From positions 89,192-153,191 of the forward strand of contig CALAJN010000002.1 of NCBI GenBank assembly GCA_937922675.1: a stretch of 64,000 nucleotides of DNA, in the 5' to 3' direction. The first letter of the stretch is position 1. The number at the start of each line of letters is the position of its first letter. This DNA is from an uncultured Granulosicoccaceae bacterium (GTDB lineage Bacteria > Pseudomonadota > Gammaproteobacteria > Granulosicoccales > Granulosicoccaceae). Of the stretch, positions 3,047 to 34,280 are shown in pieces. A program made the translations under genes and the position numbers. The notes below the pieces were generated by a model. It was not told where the DNA came from, did not search any database, and saw nothing but the letters and a program-made list of their open reading frames with translations.

Positions 3047-3070
3047 ATCAGTGACTACACTTTGCACCTG

Positions 3071-4105
3071 ATGAATCCTTGCACCCGGACAGCAACAGTG
3101 GCAGCAGTGCTTGAATTTCCGCGGTGCGCTGCGGCCTCACGAGGCACTCTGTTGGCTTGTGCCCTGGCGCTTGTCGGTTGCGCGAACGTGTCCACAGACT
3201 CGGTGGAGTCGCGTCTGGAGAGGTTGACGCTGCAACCCAATATGTACGTGGTGCAAGCAGGCGACACCCTGGAGACGGTCGCATTTCGCTACCAGCTGGC
3301 GCCAGCGGATCTTGCTGCGCTGAATCCGGGAATCTCCCAGTACCTCGTGCCAGGAGCGCGCATCAATGTACGGCCTGGAACGCAGTTGTCGGCCGAGTTG
3401 CGTGCAGCCTCTCGGGTGCCGTCCAATGCGGCATCAATTATCGCGGCAGCTCCAGCGGCTCCGCCTGCTGCGGCGTCGACAGGTACAACGCGAGGAGTGC
3501 CTGCGGAGTCGACAGTGACCACGGTCTCAACCTTCGAGCCCGGCATGAATTCAGCGCAGGCGCCAACGATTGCGCAGCCGCGAGCAGGGGAGATCATCAT
3601 CGCCGAGGCGGCGTTTGATTCTGTGACCGGTGGGTATCCGGGTGAAGAGGTCGTCACCGATGAGTTTGATGTACTGGCGCCTTCAAATGGCTACACGCCA
3701 GTGCCGTCTGCTGATACGGCTGCAGCGACAGGATCAAACTGGGTATGGCCTACCGAAGGACAGGTCGCGCGTGGTTTTGCTCCAGAGCGCATCGGAGGCC
3801 AAGGCGTGGATATTGCCGGTGTACCAGGGCAGAACATTGTGGCAGCGACAACCGGCACGGTTGTTTACTCGGGCAAGGATCCATCAGGTGCGGGTGGCAG
3901 TCTGGTCATTCTGAAACACGCCGACGATCTGATGACCACCTACTCGCATGCAGACAAACTCTTCGTAACGGAAGACGACATCGTTCAAGCGGGCGATCCG
4001 ATTGCGAGTCTCGGGTGGAATGACGCCTCGGAGTCAGTGCTGAGTTTTGAAGTCAGACGAGCTGGATCCCCCTTGGATCCACTGAGTTTTGTTACCGCTC
4101 GTTGA
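3071..4105 (+). CDS. nlpD: Murein hydrolase activator NlpD (LysM and degenerate M23 lipoprotein)
   Basis: A 344-residue lipoprotein. The signal peptide ends in a lipobox-like LACALALVGC, giving Cys as residue 1 of the mature protein. A LysM domain follows (about residues 58-100, with VVQAGDTLETVAFRYQL), then a low-complexity Ala/Pro/Thr linker, and a C-terminal M23/LytM domain. The LytM domain lacks metal ligands. The usual first His is absent (GGQGVDIAG), and the final HxH-type position reads LSFEVR. This matches NlpD, which activates an amidase rather than cutting peptidoglycan itself. A TTG lies just upstream at 3062; I prefer the ATG at 3071. In relatives the main rpoS promoter lies inside nlpD. 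Confidence 0.93.
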   Translation: MNPCTRTATVAAVLEFPRCAAASRGTLLACALALVGCANVSTDSVESRLERLTLQPNMYVVQAGDTLETVAFRYQLAPADLAALNPGISQYLVPGARINVRPGTQLSAELRAASRVPSNAASIIAAAPAAPPAAASTGTTRGVPAESTVTTVSTFEPGMNSAQAPTIAQPRAGEIIIAEAAFDSVTGGYPGEEVVTDEFDVLAPSNGYTPVPSADTAAATGSNWVWPTEGQVARGFAPERIGGQGVDIAGVPGQNIVAATTGTVVYSGKDPSGAGGSLVILKHADDLMTTYSHADKLFVTEDDIVQAGDPIASLGWNDASESVLSFEVRRAGSPLDPLSFVTAR

Positions 4106-4132: not shown

Positions 4133-4168
4133 CTGTATGTAATAACAGCTAGCTGTTGAAACATACAG
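4133..4168. repeat. Nested palindrome in the nlpD-rpoS intergenic region
   Basis: CTGTATGT (4133-4140) is mirrored by ACATACAG (4161-4168). Between them lies the perfect 14-bp palindrome AACAGCTAGCTGTT (4144-4157), separated from the outer arms by three unpaired bases on each side. As RNA this would form one long interrupted hairpin in the rpoS leader; as DNA it could hold one or two dimeric regulators. No run of T follows, so it is not an intrinsic terminator. Confidence 0.6.
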
Positions 4169-4297: not shown

Positions 4298-5254
4298 ATG
4301 GCCACGATGATGCAAGAAAGCTGGAACCGTTCACTGGTCACCGAGCCGCGGGAGCGCCCGCCGGAATCTCGCAGCAAGGAAAAATTGCCCAAGAGTCAGC
4401 TGAAGGATGCATCGCGCAAGGAGATGGACGCTACGCGTCTGTACCTGAAGGAAATCGAGCATTCGGAGTTGTTGACCGCTGACGAGGAAAAGAGCTACAC
4501 CCGACTTGCACAAGCGGGTTGTGAGAAGTCTCGCGCCAAGATGATCGAATGCAATTTGCGTCTGGTTGTCAAGATTGCGCGTCGATACATGAATCGTGGT
4601 CTTGCGCTGCTTGACCTGATCGAAGAGGGCAACCTCGGTCTGATTCACTCTGTGGAAAAATTTGACCCCGAGCGAGGCTTTCGCTTCTCCACTTACGCCA
4701 CCTGGTGGATTCGCCAGACCATCGAGCGTGGCTTGATGAACCAGACTCGCACGATCCGACTGCCGATTCACGTCGTCAAGGAGATGAACGTCTACATCAA
4801 GGCTGAGCGTCGTCTGCAGCAGTCACTGGATCGCGAGCCGACGGCCGAAGATATTGCCCAGATCACTGAAAAGCCGGTCGCTGATGTCATCCGCCTGATG
4901 GGTCTGCGTGATCGCGTCACGTCAGTTGATGTAGCGGTTGGCAAGGACGGTGAGCGTTCCTTGCTCGATATCATCCCTGACGAGAACAACCTGGACCCGT
5001 CCGAGGCTCTGCAGGACGAGCGGGTCAACGGCAATATCGACAAATGGTTGTCTTCACTCGAAGACAAGCAACGCGAGGTGCTGGTTCGTCGTTTTGGCCT
5101 GCACGGTCACGAAAAAAATACACTCGAAGAAGTGGGCAAGGAGCTCGGTGTTACTCGAGAGCGCGTTCGCCAGATCCAGATGGAGGCGCTCAAGCGCCTG
5201 CGCCGCACTCTCGAGGGCAGCGGGTACTCGGCCGACACCTTGTTCACTGCCTGA
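4298..5254 (+). CDS. rpoS: RNA polymerase sigma factor RpoS
   Basis: A group 2 sigma-70 factor of 318 residues, the stationary-phase/general stress sigma factor. Visible parts are region 1.2 ([21 protein letters not shown]), region 2 with [34 protein letters not shown] and the -10-recognition segment [16 protein letters not shown], then region 3, and region 4 ending in [21 protein letters not shown]. The long region 1.1 of RpoD is absent. With the NlpD neighbour this identifies RpoS rather than another group 2 factor. The 190-bp gap upstream holds a strong palindrome that may affect expression. Confidence 0.96.
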
Positions 5255-30651: not shown

Positions 30652-30896
30652 GCGCAGTGCTCACGCTCAAGGGAAGTTGGCCGCTCTTTTACCAGATCCT
30701 GTGGTCCACTGCCTTGCAGCGTATGCGTCCCGCTGTGTTTCAGTGCAAGGTACCGGCCTGTTGTGATCGGTTCTCCGAGGCAGTAGGCATCACGCTGTAT
30801 TGCGAACAGGCGCTCGGCGGCTGGTGACGACTATTCAGATCAAGAGGTAACGAAAGCCTCGATCAGTCCTGATGGGCTGGTTGGGCGCGAGTCGGT

Positions 30897-31670
30897 TTAC
30901 CCTGGCTCGTTTTGCGTGATCGTCACACCGTCTGGAAAATGCCCGCTTTTGTACCAGACGAGGGTGCCAGGGGTGCCAGCCCATGACTGCCAGGCAGGTA
31001 CCGGGTTTCGGATCCAGCTGCCGGCGGGGTAGGTGCCGCTGGAGTCGTGAAGTGCTCCGCTCAGCACATAGAGTTCCTCTCCGATCGGATCCAGATTGGG
31101 GTGAAAGGCAGCGGTTGTGTGCCAGCGCACCAGCATGACAGTGCTGGTCCCGTGCCCATGCAGTGGCAGGACCTCCACACCGCCAACCGGCCCCTCGAAC
31201 CAGGCTGCGTCGTCGTTGGTATCCATGCGGCGAACCTCGGTATCGGTGGACTCGATCTGGCCGATGGCAACGGTGACCAGCGACTCCTCGAGCAGCGTGA
31301 TGGCGCGGATCTCTCCCGGGTCCCGTGGTAGTCGCAGATAGGTGCCTGGGCCAAGTCTTTCATCGCCGAGAAGAACGCTTCCGCGTTGCACAAACATCTC
31401 GATTCCATGGTCAGCACCGATTACCGCGCCGGTCTGCAGTGGCTGCAGTACGGCGACGAGTCGGCCATCCTTACGGCTCAGCTCGAGCAGTCGGATCTCC
31501 AGCTCGTGGTTGGTGTCCTGCAGCCACTCAGGCTCGCCAGGCAGGCAGACCTCGCGCAGGCGGTGATCAGCTGCGACATCGGCGGACGCTGCAAGCAGCC
31601 AGGTCGGCAATGCTGTCGAGGAGGCAGGCGGCTGTGCCTTGCGCTTGTCTGTGGCGGGTCTGGGTGACAC
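30897..31670 (-). CDS. ChrR-like double-cupin protein
   Basis: A 257-residue protein with two cupin-like halves related to the C-terminal domain of the anti-sigma factor ChrR. The second half is clearest: GTSTVMLVRWHTTAAFHPNLDPIGEELYVLSGALHDSSGTYPAGSWIRNPVPAWQS. The zinc-binding anti-sigma domain of ChrR is absent, so it is more likely a stand-alone sensor or enzyme. The start is a GTG. It is divergent from lexA across 134 bp holding the lexA operator; whether it is also LexA-controlled is unknown. Confidence 0.78.
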   Translation of the reverse strand: MSPRPATDKRKAQPPASSTALPTWLLAASADVAADHRLREVCLPGEPEWLQDTNHELEIRLLELSRKDGRLVAVLQPLQTGAVIGADHGIEMFVQRGSVLLGDERLGPGTYLRLPRDPGEIRAITLLEESLVTVAIGQIESTDTEVRRMDTNDDAAWFEGPVGGVEVLPLHGHGTSTVMLVRWHTTAAFHPNLDPIGEELYVLSGALHDSSGTYPAGSWIRNPVPAWQSWAGTPGTLVWYKSGHFPDGVTITQNEPG

Positions 31671-31749
31671 GTGAGTGAGCCTGAACGGTCTGCTGGGACT
31701 TGTCTGTGGAGTTCCGTTCTGGAGGTAGCGGCGAGTGCACGCAAAGCCG

Positions 31750-31778
31750 TTGAAAATTCTCCAAACGTTCTCTATGAT
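31750..31778 (+). promoter_or_regulatory. Sigma-70 promoter of lexA
   Basis: TTGAAA (31750-31755) and TATGAT (31773-31778) are separated by exactly 17 bp. The -10 hexamer differs from the consensus at one position and the -35 at one position (TTGACA). The spacer and -10 box are covered by the palindromic operator, so a repressor bound there would block the promoter. Confidence 0.7.
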
Positions 31779-31800
31779 CGAAAGAGAACTTTTGGAGAAT
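31756..31800 (+). promoter_or_regulatory. Large palindromic LexA autoregulatory operator (inferred)
   Basis: Twenty bases at 31756-31775 match the reverse complement of 31781-31800 at 18 of 20 positions, around the 5-bp centre GATCG. Each arm carries two TTCTC elements 11 bp apart (31757 and 31768; mirrored as GAGAA at 31784 and 31795). This is neither the CTGT-N8-ACAG box of Escherichia coli nor the GAAC-N4-GTTC box of Gram-positive bacteria. It ends 4 bases before the lexA ATG and includes the GGAG ribosome-binding site, so it spans promoter and translation start. Confidence 0.7.
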
Positions 31801-31804
31801 CTTT

Positions 31805-32605
31805 ATGAGTGAAGGCCCACCGCTGACGCATCTGGAAGCCCGTGTACTGGCAGCCATCGAGCGCCACATCCGGGCCGAAGGTGTCGCGCCAACCATCGCT
31901 GAACTGGCATCGGACTTACGTCTGAAGTCCAAGGGCACCGTGCATCGCTACGTGCAGTCACTCATTGGCAAAGGCCGGTTGGAGCGTCACGGCAACGGGT
32001 GGCGCGGGTTGCGCATCGTGGGCCTGGATGTCCCCGGGTATCGCTCCAACGTCCATCCCTTCCCGAGTCGCCGCAAATCAGATCAGGTGGCCAATGAACC
32101 GACGGCTGAGCAGCGCAGCATGGTGGTCACGCCGCTGGCATTGCCGGCCAGCGTGGAGTCAGACGTGTCCGAACCTGTTGCATTGCCAGCAGAAGGCAGA
32201 CACGCAGGAGGTTCGAGTGCCGAGCAGGGCATGCGCATACCGCTGCTGGGACGAATTGCCGCCGGCATGCCCATCGAAGCCATAGAAGATCAGCACTATC
32301 TTGATCTGGCTGCTTTTTTCATCGGCCCGGATCGCTACGCCCTGCGAGTCACTGGGGATTCGATGATGGATGTCGGCATACTCGATGGCGATACGGTGAT
32401 CCTGCGCAAACAGGAGACGGCAAACACTGGAGACATCGTTGTGGCGCTGATCGATGGTCAGGAAGCAACGCTGAAACGCCTCGGCTCCGTACGCGACGGC
32501 AAAGTGGAACTCATCCCCGAGAACGCTGCGATGGAGACGATGCTCTACCACCTTGATCGCGTCAGTTTTCAGGGCGTGTTGGTCGGGCAGCTGCGGAATT
32601 ATTGA
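31805..32605 (+). CDS. lexA: LexA-type SOS repressor
   Basis: A 266-residue self-cleaving repressor. The N-terminal winged helix (residues 8-70) reads LTHLEARVLAAIERHIRAEG-VAPTIAELASDLRLKSKGTVHRYVQSLIGKGRLERHG. The C-terminal S24 domain has the Ala153-Gly154 cleavage site (GRIAAGMPIE), nucleophile Ser186 (GDSMMDVGI) and base Lys224 (ATLKRL); spacing matches Escherichia coli LexA (A84-G85, S119, K156). The linker between the domains is about 70 residues longer than in that protein. The recognition helix also differs, consistent with the unusual operator. RecA-triggered cleavage is expected by family. SRAP and nth genes lie close downstream. Confidence 0.92.
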   Translation: MSEGPPLTHLEARVLAAIERHIRAEGVAPTIAELASDLRLKSKGTVHRYVQSLIGKGRLERHGNGWRGLRIVGLDVPGYRSNVHPFPSRRKSDQVANEPTAEQRSMVVTPLALPASVESDVSEPVALPAEGRHAGGSSAEQGMRIPLLGRIAAGMPIEAIEDQHYLDLAAFFIGPDRYALRVTGDSMMDVGILDGDTVILRKQETANTGDIVVALIDGQEATLKRLGSVRDGKVELIPENAAMETMLYHLDRVSFQGVLVGQLRNY

Positions 32606-32695
32606 ACCCGGTGCCGGGCGAGCCGACTGATGCTGCAATCGCTACACTCGAGCTTACAGTACCCGACTACTATCTACCTGCAACTGCAAGCCTCC

Positions 32696-32905
32696 ATGTC
32701 TGACACCGATCTCATTCATGCCCTCAAAGTGGCCTTTACCTACTTGCCACAGGCCATGGACGTCAATGAGTACGACTTTCCCGGACGCGTAGACAAAACA
32801 CTTGCCGACATCGAATGCGTGCGTGAGGCTTTGCTGGCGCAAGGTATCGACCCGGACGAGGTAGCAGGGGAGTTTGACCTCGGCGCGCCCGAGTCGAGCC
32901 TGTAG
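32696..32905 (+). CDS. Small acidic hypothetical protein
   Basis: A 69-residue acidic protein starting MSDTDLIHALKVAFTYLPQ and containing VDKTLADIECVREALLAQGIDPDEV. The composition and frame look coding, with a helical, soluble pattern. I do not recognise a family. It follows lexA by 90 bp on the same strand and ends before the convergent SRAP gene. An upstream TTG-type start at 32630 would add unlikely sequence. Confidence 0.55.
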   Translation: MSDTDLIHALKVAFTYLPQAMDVNEYDFPGRVDKTLADIECVREALLAQGIDPDEVAGEFDLGAPESSL

Positions 32906-32923
32906 GTCGCGTGTCGCTCACCC

Positions 32924-33613
32924 TCAAAACAAGGGCAGGTTGCGAGGCGGTGCGAGGCACTCCGGACCTTCGTTTCTGGCGCTGTTGACGTAGTCTCCCA
33001 CACGCTCCACAGCGAGCTCGATCTTCGAGGGCTCTTGTATGGCGTGTTCGCAAAGATCATCCTCACTCATCCATCGCCGCGCCGCGGTCGGTGTGAGCAT
33101 GACTGGCATGCGATCGTGGATGTCGGTGAAGTGTGAGTCCGCAGCACGGGTCAACAAGCACAAGGCCGGCAGTGGTTGCTCACTACCGGCCGGCGGGGCC
33201 CAGATACCGGCGACGAGCAGGCCCGGTCCGGCGCATGGGCGGATGTAGTAGGCGTGGCGTTGTCTGGCGCTGCGCTGCCATTCGTAAAATCCGTTGATCG
33301 GAAGGATGCATCGTCTGGTGCGGGCGTGCTCGCGAAAGCTTGGCTTGTCGAACACGGATTCTGAACGTGCGTTGATCAAGGGCGGCTGCGTTCCCTTCCA
33401 GGGCGCCTTGATTCCCCAGTGCATTCTGACGATGGACCTGTCGCGGGTCACCGCGTCGAGCGAGCGAGTCGGCGCGACATTCCATCGCGGTATGCGTGCT
33501 GTGGGCGCGGGCTCGGCTACGTCCGGGGCCTGAGGCCTGGTCGTGTGCTCGATAATCGACGCGATCAACTCGTCGAGCCCCTCCAGGTCGCTGACATTTA
33601 CTCGTCCGCACAT
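32924..33613 (-). CDS. SOS response-associated peptidase / abasic-site cross-linker (SRAP, YedK-like)
   Basis: A 229-residue SRAP protein. Family members form a covalent thiazolidine link between Cys2 and abasic sites in single-stranded DNA. The gene starts MCGRVNV, so Cys2 is present after Met removal. WNVAPTRS carries the conserved Asn, INARSESVFDKPSFREHARTRRCILPINGFYEWQ the Glu, and DIHDRMPVML the His. The start at 33613 is set by the need for Cys at position 2. It is divergent from nth across 22 bp, so their promoters must overlap into the coding regions or be shared. Confidence 0.92.
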   Translation of the reverse strand: MCGRVNVSDLEGLDELIASIIEHTTRPQAPDVAEPAPTARIPRWNVAPTRSLDAVTRDRSIVRMHWGIKAPWKGTQPPLINARSESVFDKPSFREHARTRRCILPINGFYEWQRSARQRHAYYIRPCAGPGLLVAGIWAPPAGSEQPLPALCLLTRAADSHFTDIHDRMPVMLTPTAARRWMSEDDLCEHAIQEPSKIELAVERVGDYVNSARNEGPECLAPPRNLPLF

Positions 33614-33635
33614 GCGGTGATGATAGTTTGAACCG

Positions 33636-34280
33636 ATGAACGCTGACAAACGCCGAGAGATTTTTCGACGACTCGCTGAGGAGAGACCTCATCCTGTGCC
33701 GGAGCTCGACTATACGAGCCCCTTTGAACTGCTGGTCGCTGTGATCCTGTCGGCTCAGGCAACTGATATCAGCGTCAATCTGGCCACCGGCAAGCTGTAT
33801 CCGGTGGCAAACACGCCTGAGACCATGCTTGATCTTGGAGTTGATGGCGTGATCGAGCACATCCGCACCATCGGTCTGTTCAACAACAAGGCGAAAAACG
33901 TGATCGAGACCTGTCGCATTCTGCTGGAGCAACATGACGGTCAGGTGCCGGCAGATCGCAAGTCGCTGGAGGCCTTGCCCGGTGTGGGCAGAAAAACCGC
34001 CAACGTGGTGCTTAACATTGCATTTGGCCAGCCCACGCTGGCTGTGGATACACATGTATTTCGTGTCTCCAATCGCACAGGCCTGGTCAGGGGCAAGACG
34101 GTGGATGAGGTGGAGAAAAAACTGTTGCGTCATGTGCCCAAGGACTATCTGATGGACGCGCATCACTGGTTGATTCTGCATGGGCGCTACACTTGTGTGG
34201 CGCGCAAGCCCAGATGTCCGAGCTGCGTTATTCGTGATGTGTGCGAATTTCGTGACAAGACACGTGACGTCACTGCTTGA
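33636..34280 (+). CDS. nth: Endonuclease III
   Basis: A 214-residue DNA glycosylase/AP lyase for oxidised pyrimidines. The helix-hairpin-helix and active-site region reads LEALPGVGRKTANVVLNIAFGQPTLAVDTHVFRVSNR, containing the catalytic Lys and Asp. A 4Fe-4S cluster motif is at the C terminus (CVARKPRCPSCVIRDVC, spacing C-x6-C-x2-C-x5-C). It is divergent from the SRAP gene and close to lexA, forming a small DNA-repair neighbourhood. Confidence 0.96.
   Translation: MNADKRREIFRRLAEERPHPVPELDYTSPFELLVAVILSAQATDISVNLATGKLYPVANTPETMLDLGVDGVIEHIRTIGLFNNKAKNVIETCRILLEQHDGQVPADRKSLEALPGVGRKTANVVLNIAFGQPTLAVDTHVFRVSNRTGLVRGKTVDEVEKKLLRHVPKDYLMDAHHWLILHGRYTCVARKPRCPSCVIRDVCEFRDKTRDVTA

Follow-up and report, generated by a model that had tools for sequence, protein, structure and literature searches.

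Which protein reads the near-perfect palindrome over the promoter of a gammaproteobacterial lexA gene, and does it mark an SOS system of its own? The gene lies in a 64-kb window (the whole stretch of DNA analysed here, C2:89192-153191 of genome G000, which comprises 3.63 Mb in 20 contigs), and the closest named matches to the LexA that it encodes come from Granulosicoccus, of the Gammaproteobacteria. A preliminary description of the sequence had taken the palindrome for one 45-bp operator with four half-sites, unlike any known SOS box and belonging to a separate LexA/SOS-box type, for which it suggested strong cooperative autorepression. Our analysis points to a different arrangement. The promoter very probably carries two inverted 17-bp direct-repeat boxes in front of a non-canonical lexA (lexA2), boxes predicted to be bound by LexA2 itself, which would repress its own gene until DNA damage occurs (Table 1).

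Table 1 Features of the lexA2 locus, in window coordinates
Feature	Position	Strand	Basis or score
-35 hexamer TTGAAA, abutting the left box	31750..31755	+	Promoter search; register across left boxes
Left putative SOS box ATTCTCCAAACGTTCTC (type GTTCTC-N5-GTTCTC), coextensive with the 17-bp spacer of the promoter	31756..31772	+	25.4 bits
-10 hexamer TATGAT	31773..31778	+	Promoter search
Right putative SOS box, in inverted orientation (minus strand: ATTCTCCAAAAGTTCTC)	31784..31800	-	25.5 bits
GGAGAA, resembling a Shine-Dalgarno sequence, within the right box and 5 nt upstream of the ATG	31794..31799	+	Sequence
lexA2, the genome's second LexA, 266 aa	31805..32605	+	TIGR00498, PF00717, PF01726
Winged-helix DNA-binding domain, divergent, residues 6-64	31820..31996	+	PF01726, alignment A1
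Recognition helix SKGTVHRYVQSLI, residues 42-54	31928..31966	+	Placed against E. coli LexA; S-[KRQ]-x3-H-[RNK] signature
S24 self-cleavage domain (predicted activity), residues 146-260	32240..32584	+	PF00717, motif positions

LexA2 passes the LexA equivalog threshold of TIGR00498 (146.6 bits against a cut-off of 110.95), and its matches to PF00717 (93.2 bits) and PF01726 (37.9 bits) are both above cut-off. By motif, the protein carries an Ala153-Gly154 cleavage bond and a Ser186/Lys224 dyad, with which it would be expected to cleave itself. It is one of two S24/LexA proteins encoded in the genome, the other being LexA1 (gene at C8:179967), which has an E. coli-type helix, SPTAADDHL. The winged helix next to the palindrome had been described as divergent, and rightly so: its recognition helix, which we place by comparison with E. 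coli LexA, has the signature S-[KRQ]-x3-H-[RNK] and is unlike that of LexA1. The linker between the two domains of LexA2 (residues 73-145, window 32021-32239) is long, and variable in Granulosicoccus. Counted from the start of the HTH, LexA2 proteins of the genus have 221-286 aa (excluding that of G004, which is cut by a contig end) and LexA2-type proteins outside the genus 195-206 aa, except in G028 and G035.

Downstream of lexA2 come a small ORF of 91 aa (32630-32905) and then a convergent gene of the SRAP type (SOS response-associated peptidase; 32924-33649, minus strand), with an endonuclease III-like gene (nth; 33636-34280, plus strand) beside it. The small ORF is conserved, at 46-63% identity in 13 of 15 relative loci, and matches no family in Pfam or NCBIfam at E 0.01. 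The SRAP-type gene is found nearby in 2 of 15 relative loci and nth in 12 of 15.

The palindrome is as conspicuous as had been claimed. Its arms, 31756-31775 (ATTCTCCAAACGTTCTCTAT) and 31781-31800, form an inverted repeat that matches at 18 of 20 positions, and a repeat search lengthens them to 31753-31773/31783-31803 (90% of 21). No second inverted repeat of such quality (arm of 20, at least 18 matches, gap of at most 12) occurs elsewhere in the 64 kb, and six first-order Markov simulations of 64 kb produced none of equal quality. The first letters of the elements are at 31757 and 31768 for TTCTC and at 31784 and 31795 for GAGAA, which confirms the 11-bp distance between the two elements of each arm. 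Between the inner two elements of the palindrome the distance is 16 bp, or some 1.5 turns; a common DNA face is thus limited to the pair inside each arm, and the idea that all four half-sites line up on one face had to be given up.

The overlap with promoter elements that had been noted earlier was borne out and can be stated more exactly. TTGAAA-17-TATGAT is the sole promoter-like match in 31600-32900 (mean of 0.3 in shuffles); the left box coincides with its spacer, and the right box overlies both the ribosome-binding site, with its Shine-Dalgarno-like sequence, and the region of the expected start. Scored with a weight matrix built from 84 boxes of other genomes, its own genome left out, the two boxes reach 25.4 and 25.5 bits, and the next best place in the 64 kb reaches 7.8. 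Each of them reads ATTC-N7-GTTC, the outer half-sites being ATTC, not GTTC. As the inverted repeat adjoins the ribosome-binding site, one might also think of a transcribed hairpin, an attenuator or terminator in the lexA2 leader. We give this almost no credence: a transcript from this promoter would not include the left arm, which precedes the -10 box, a search for terminator-like sites came up empty, and relatives with a single arm (see below) cannot fold a hairpin.

To follow the boxes across species, we assembled 58 LexA2-type promoters, comprising 33 from 57 related genomes, 24 from the class, and that of G057 (the genome of L033). A search of 370 genomes of the class (in the GTDB sense) supplied the 24 class promoters, all from its 30 best matches; some Granulosicoccus loci were first met by motif search, and the list of 33 comes from a protein search. 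Rows were dropped for another helix type (G047:C5), for not being LexA by sequence (G031:C1, G017:C93 and G005:C38), or, in the case of G058, for a lexA upstream sequence identical to that of G182. Conservation in relatives, on which the preliminary description had staked its case, is extensive: GTTCTC-N-GTTCTC with a spacer of exactly 5, on either strand and with at most 2 mismatches in 12, is present in 54 of the 58 promoters. Other spacers (1-4 and 6-11) were found in 1-14 of the 58, and shuffled sequences gave 0.25-0.6. Four promoters fall outside the two-mismatch limit, among them that of G109, which has no box within three.

The two boxes do not always occur together. At up to two mismatches, the left box is present in 45, the right box in 41 and both in 32 of the 58 promoters (0.42, 0.20 and 0 in shuffles); at up to three, the counts are 48, 45 and 36 (2.2, 2.1 and 0.1), with 12 promoters having the left box only, 9 the right only and 1 neither. 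Among the 9 right-only cases, that of G019 is cut by a contig end and that of G035 has its left box outside the 130-nt frame, which leaves 7. The gap between the boxes is 10-11 bp in 27 of the 36 two-arm promoters and ranges from 7 to 18 bp overall. TTGnnn stands directly before and TAnnnT directly after 42 of the 48 left boxes (background, 46 of 5785 positions, those 42 included), showing that the left box fills the 17-bp spacer exactly. Together, the single boxes and the variable gaps identify the direct repeat as the conserved unit and the palindrome as an inverted arrangement of separable boxes.

These counts bear directly on the idea of a single 45-bp palindromic operator, in which four equivalent half-sites on one face would be bound cooperatively by a wholly unknown LexA type. 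The near-perfect palindrome of the window and the 10-11-bp gap kept by most two-arm promoters are what such an operator would predict, but we regard it as very unlikely, because the inner elements are off one face, the gaps vary and promoters with one box exist (12 left only and 7 right only, with about 2 per side in shuffles). The nearly constant within-box spacer, a core close to the alphaproteobacterial one and a lone box at recA in the lineage of G057 and G285, both described below, likewise argue for the 17-bp box, and against the 45-bp palindrome, as the unit.

We then considered whether LexA1, which is encoded in the same genome, or else some unrelated protein might be the regulator that uses this operator, lexA2 being no more than its target gene. 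CTGT-N8-ACAG-type sites are found there upstream of recA (CTGTAACTGTTTACAG), at an ImuB-like gene (CTGTAAATAAATACAG) and at lexA1 (CTGTAAATACAATCAG). The ImuB-like gene, identified by a weak PF00817 match, is on another contig than lexA2, and an ImuA-like gene, so named by sequence, follows lexA1. Both LexA types are present in 23 of the 27 genomes of the genus, the remaining four being 74-86% complete, and among the eight recA promoters read within the genus, seven have a CTG-N10-CAG site and none the direct-repeat box. At up to one mismatch, CTGT-N8-ACAG is present in 32 of the 34 canonical lexA promoters examined and in 3 of the 58 LexA2-type ones; the direct-repeat box is absent from all 34, and GAAC-N4-GTTC from all 58, the window's included. 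With such sites in place and both LexA types in the genus, this genome's general SOS genes are probably under the control of LexA1, a separate LexA of the canonical type, which would bind at these sites; the direct repeat is not the genome's general SOS box. Control of the lexA2 boxes by LexA1 or an unrelated protein is highly improbable, however: the box occurs with the LexA2 protein throughout the class sample and is missing from all 34 canonical lexA promoters, the stretch 30658-33437 of the window has no CTGT-N8-ACAG site at up to one mismatch, and recognition helix and box co-vary with the alphaproteobacterial-type pair.

Two perfect CTGT-N8-ACAG sites are present elsewhere in the window, at 4133-4148 and 4153-4168, 20 bp apart (CTGTATGTAATAACAG and CTGTTGAAACATACAG). 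They fall between genes that, judging by sequence, we take to be NlpD-like (3062-4105) and to encode an RpoS-like sigma factor (4298-5254), and rpoS may be under LexA1/SOS control here.

To assess how far the direct-repeat box extends beyond lexA2, we searched the genome in several ways. A 16-mer at up to three mismatches gave 19 matches (50 for the reversed control), GTTCTC-N5-GTTCTC with one mismatch gave 16 (17 for the reversed control), and a 20-mer consensus at up to three mismatches gave the two lexA2 boxes only (control, 1). Of the 14 GTTCTC-N5-GTTCTC matches outside lexA2, three exceed 15 bits (25.9, 23.4 and 19.1), all within long ORFs; the best coincides with codons for ENIQRK in a ParB-like gene. 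Apart from the two boxes at lexA2, the consensus and mismatch searches of this genome yielded no strong intergenic site, and no strong box was found around its recA, imuB, lexA1 or dinB, although the motif had been expected at other DNA-damage genes. Weaker sites may still exist. The 57 relatives have 73 box matches (39 in the reversed control), 36 of which are at lexA2; the 37 left do not exceed the control. Nine of these that we opened are within ORFs (L061, L075, L162, L168 and L277-L281), among them a site common to G006, G016 and G013 in the start of an ABC-transporter ATPase gene. Judged by these sites, LexA2 in Granulosicoccus appears to control little beyond itself and to be nearly regulon-less.

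Two other sites were recorded in passing. Three tandem 11-bp repeats (GAAAACGTTTTGGGAACGTTTTGGGAACGTT) at L063 1490-1531 (G008:C55), another of the relatives' matches outside lexA2, are intergenic, between genes presumed by sequence to encode an MFS-type transporter and a GalU-like protein. At L286 75-91 (G057:C89:4074), an exact GTTCTC-N5-GTTCTC box adjoins an apparent gene remnant that we take, by sequence, to be that of a tyrosine recombinase.

A connection between the box and recA was found in one lineage. The recA promoters of G057, G058, G285 and G371 carry GTTCTCTTTATGTTCTC, a single box; the LexAs of G057, G285 and G371 group together in a quick tree, and G058 is placed by its twin G182. 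A profile search found one LexA each in G285 and G371 (LexAs per genome were counted with the A1 profile only, and G057 and G058 are outside that count). The box is absent from 44 of the 48 recA promoters read, including those of most genomes with only the LexA2 type by profile. It was found in 2 of 20 promoters in one set, where G037 had no recA over the cut-off, and in 2 of 28 in the other, where G254 had none and the truncated recA of G276 was left out. These two counts led us to abandon the proposal that hosts of the LexA2 type have no other SOS LexA. With 44 of 48 recA promoters lacking the box, its link to SOS draws on LexA homology and on one lineage; other recA promoters in the class look different, which leaves room for additional LexA types. 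Judged by the genes that it accompanies, the direct-repeat box would be an SOS box in that lineage and, as far as seen, an autoregulatory site elsewhere.

Among the 28 recA promoters read from other Gammaproteobacteria (L248-L275), four have TAGTAAAAAATACT near TATTGACAT and no GTTCTC box (exactly in G148, G258 and G309, with one mismatch in G261). We take this arrangement to be reminiscent of the Xanthomonas LexA box, and it hints at yet another LexA in these four genomes.

The closest precedent for the box is alphaproteobacterial. GTTC-N7-GTTC is the LexA motif reported for Alphaproteobacteria (PMC8565304, PMC3323433 and PMC3091678); the window core, ATTC-N7-GTTC, is one letter off it, and GTTCTC-N5-GTTCTC contains it. 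The claim that the half-site is not a known SOS box thus stands for CTGT-N8-ACAG and GAAC-N4-GTTC and falls for the alphaproteobacterial repeat, and in the same way the proposed separate LexA/SOS-box type is apart from the first two motifs and has a precedent in the third. Of the 58 LexA2-type promoters, 26 have an exact GTTC-N7-GTTC, and the number rises to 52 when one mismatch is allowed (1 and 94 of 1160 shuffles). In the same scan, as a positive control, exact matches were found in 11 of 16 alphaproteobacterial-type lexA promoters and in none of 34 canonical ones. Here, 'alphaproteobacterial-type' denotes the kinship 'same phylum, other class' together with the helix SKSGIHRL, taken as the alphaproteobacterial form. 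Four of these 16 promoters also contain the GTTCTC box at the threshold used above, so the box is not exclusive to the LexA2 type. The helix signature S-[KRQ]-x3-H-[RNK] is found in 57 of the 58 LexA2-type proteins (partly by construction, as the set was chosen by similarity to this domain), in 16 of 16 alphaproteobacterial-type and in 0 of 34 canonical LexAs.

To place LexA2 among LexA proteins, we built a tree of 37 of the 58 LexA2-type, 12 of the 34 LexA1 and all 16 alphaproteobacterial-type rows, with 5 others; after a first quick tree, we removed G028 and G164 for their long branches, and also one Firmicutes row. LexA2-type and alphaproteobacterial-type rows are on one side of a branch with support of 85/89, a branch that is not starred. 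The 16 alphaproteobacterial-type rows form their own clade (98/99), excluding all 37 LexA2-type rows, and the LexA2 type as a single clade is weakly supported (74/51). A warning from the tree program concerns long branches among the remaining rows, which join one another on the LexA1 side. Common ancestry of the LexA2 type with alphaproteobacterial LexA is suggested by this topology, and LexA2 would work like the alphaproteobacterial pair of LexA and box, yet from outside that clade.

The same kinship could also reflect horizontal acquisition of an alphaproteobacterial lexA that brought its box along. The common GTTC-N7-GTTC core, the helix signature and the joint branch would all be expected from such an event, and lexA transfer of this kind has reportedly occurred in Acidobacterium capsulatum, to judge by a title cited in PMC3323433. 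We nevertheless consider it unlikely. The alphaproteobacterial-type clade excludes every LexA2-type row in the tree; the LexA2 box has an extra conserved TC (GTTCTC), though 4 of the 16 alphaproteobacterial-type promoters pass too; and among the 13 loci of Granulosicoccus and Granulosicoccaceae, queG and a cupin gene remain upstream of lexA2 in 11 and nth downstream in 12.

In the mechanism that we favour, one LexA2 dimer would occupy each 17-bp box, as we infer from the spacing, core and helix signature held in common with alphaproteobacterial LexA and GTTC-N7-GTTC. Because the left box fills the -35/-10 spacer exactly, its occupation would exclude sigma-70 polymerase, and an occupied right box, over the start region and the Shine-Dalgarno sequence, would presumably add to the repression. 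RecA filaments would then cause LexA2 to be cut at Ala153-Gly154, residues that are present in the protein, and lexA2 would be derepressed. Having two boxes could make repression cooperative or stepwise; the loose spacing between them argues against one rigid complex.

On a wider scale, Gammaproteobacteria might harbour a class-wide second LexA lineage that resembles alphaproteobacterial LexA and has its own spacer-filling box, with present genomes representing successive stages of SOS rewiring: self-control only in Granulosicoccus, and recA taken over in the related lineage. We offer this tentatively, as a possibility somewhat short of an even chance. If it is true, the LexA2 of Granulosicoccus would be a damage repressor with no target but its own gene, in a genome that also encodes a canonical LexA.

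In evolution, the DNA box of LexA has changed with unusual frequency. PMC8565304 speaks of 17 reported LexA motifs, with motif change following lexA duplication, and proposes a route in which a duplicated lexA diverges in motif and then takes up, or takes over, the SOS regulon. A genus in which two LexAs have unrelated boxes, beside a lineage with the box of the second type at recA, would allow a direct test of that route. Where the lexA of a gammaproteobacterium departs from the E. coli box, GTTCTC-N5-GTTCTC provides a usable motif for annotation of its SOS genes. The helix S-[KRQ]-x3-H-[RNK] and the 11-bp direct repeat also make a clean pair for asking how LexA reads a direct as opposed to an inverted repeat.

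Compared with known systems, LexA2 combines familiar features in a setting of its own. With E. coli-type LexA (CTGT-N8-ACAG), represented in this genome by LexA1, it has the family and the S24 cleavage domain in common, but its winged helix and box differ. The Gram-positive LexA box, GAAC-N4-GTTC, contains the same GTTC tetramer, inverted there and direct in the LexA2 box. The LexA2 of Pseudomonas putida has the motif GTAC-N4-GTGC. In that species, LexA2 has been reported with a lexA2-imuA-imuB-imuC operon and control of its own gene (PMC3901139 and PMC5261740). A second LexA beside a canonical one and control of its own gene, here predicted, are thus common to both, but the lexA2 of the window is not joined to imuABC; the ImuA-like gene is behind lexA1 and the ImuB-like gene on another contig. 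Two LexAs with different boxes, and a related lineage with the box at recA, match the duplication model of PMC8565304; an origin of the present two LexAs by duplication is a candidate only. In the open-licence literature, with most subscription journals outside it, we found no report of this box in Gammaproteobacteria, which is no proof that it is unpublished. The closest parallel is the alphaproteobacterial LexA (PMC3323433, PMC8565304 and PMC3091678), which has the same 11-bp direct repeat, helix signature and box in the lexA promoter, with a GTTC core that the window boxes match but for one letter. LexA2 differs from it in belonging to a different LexA clade, found in Gammaproteobacteria, and in a box that is extended to GTTCTC-N5-GTTCTC and is doubled and inverted around the promoter in 36 of 58 cases.
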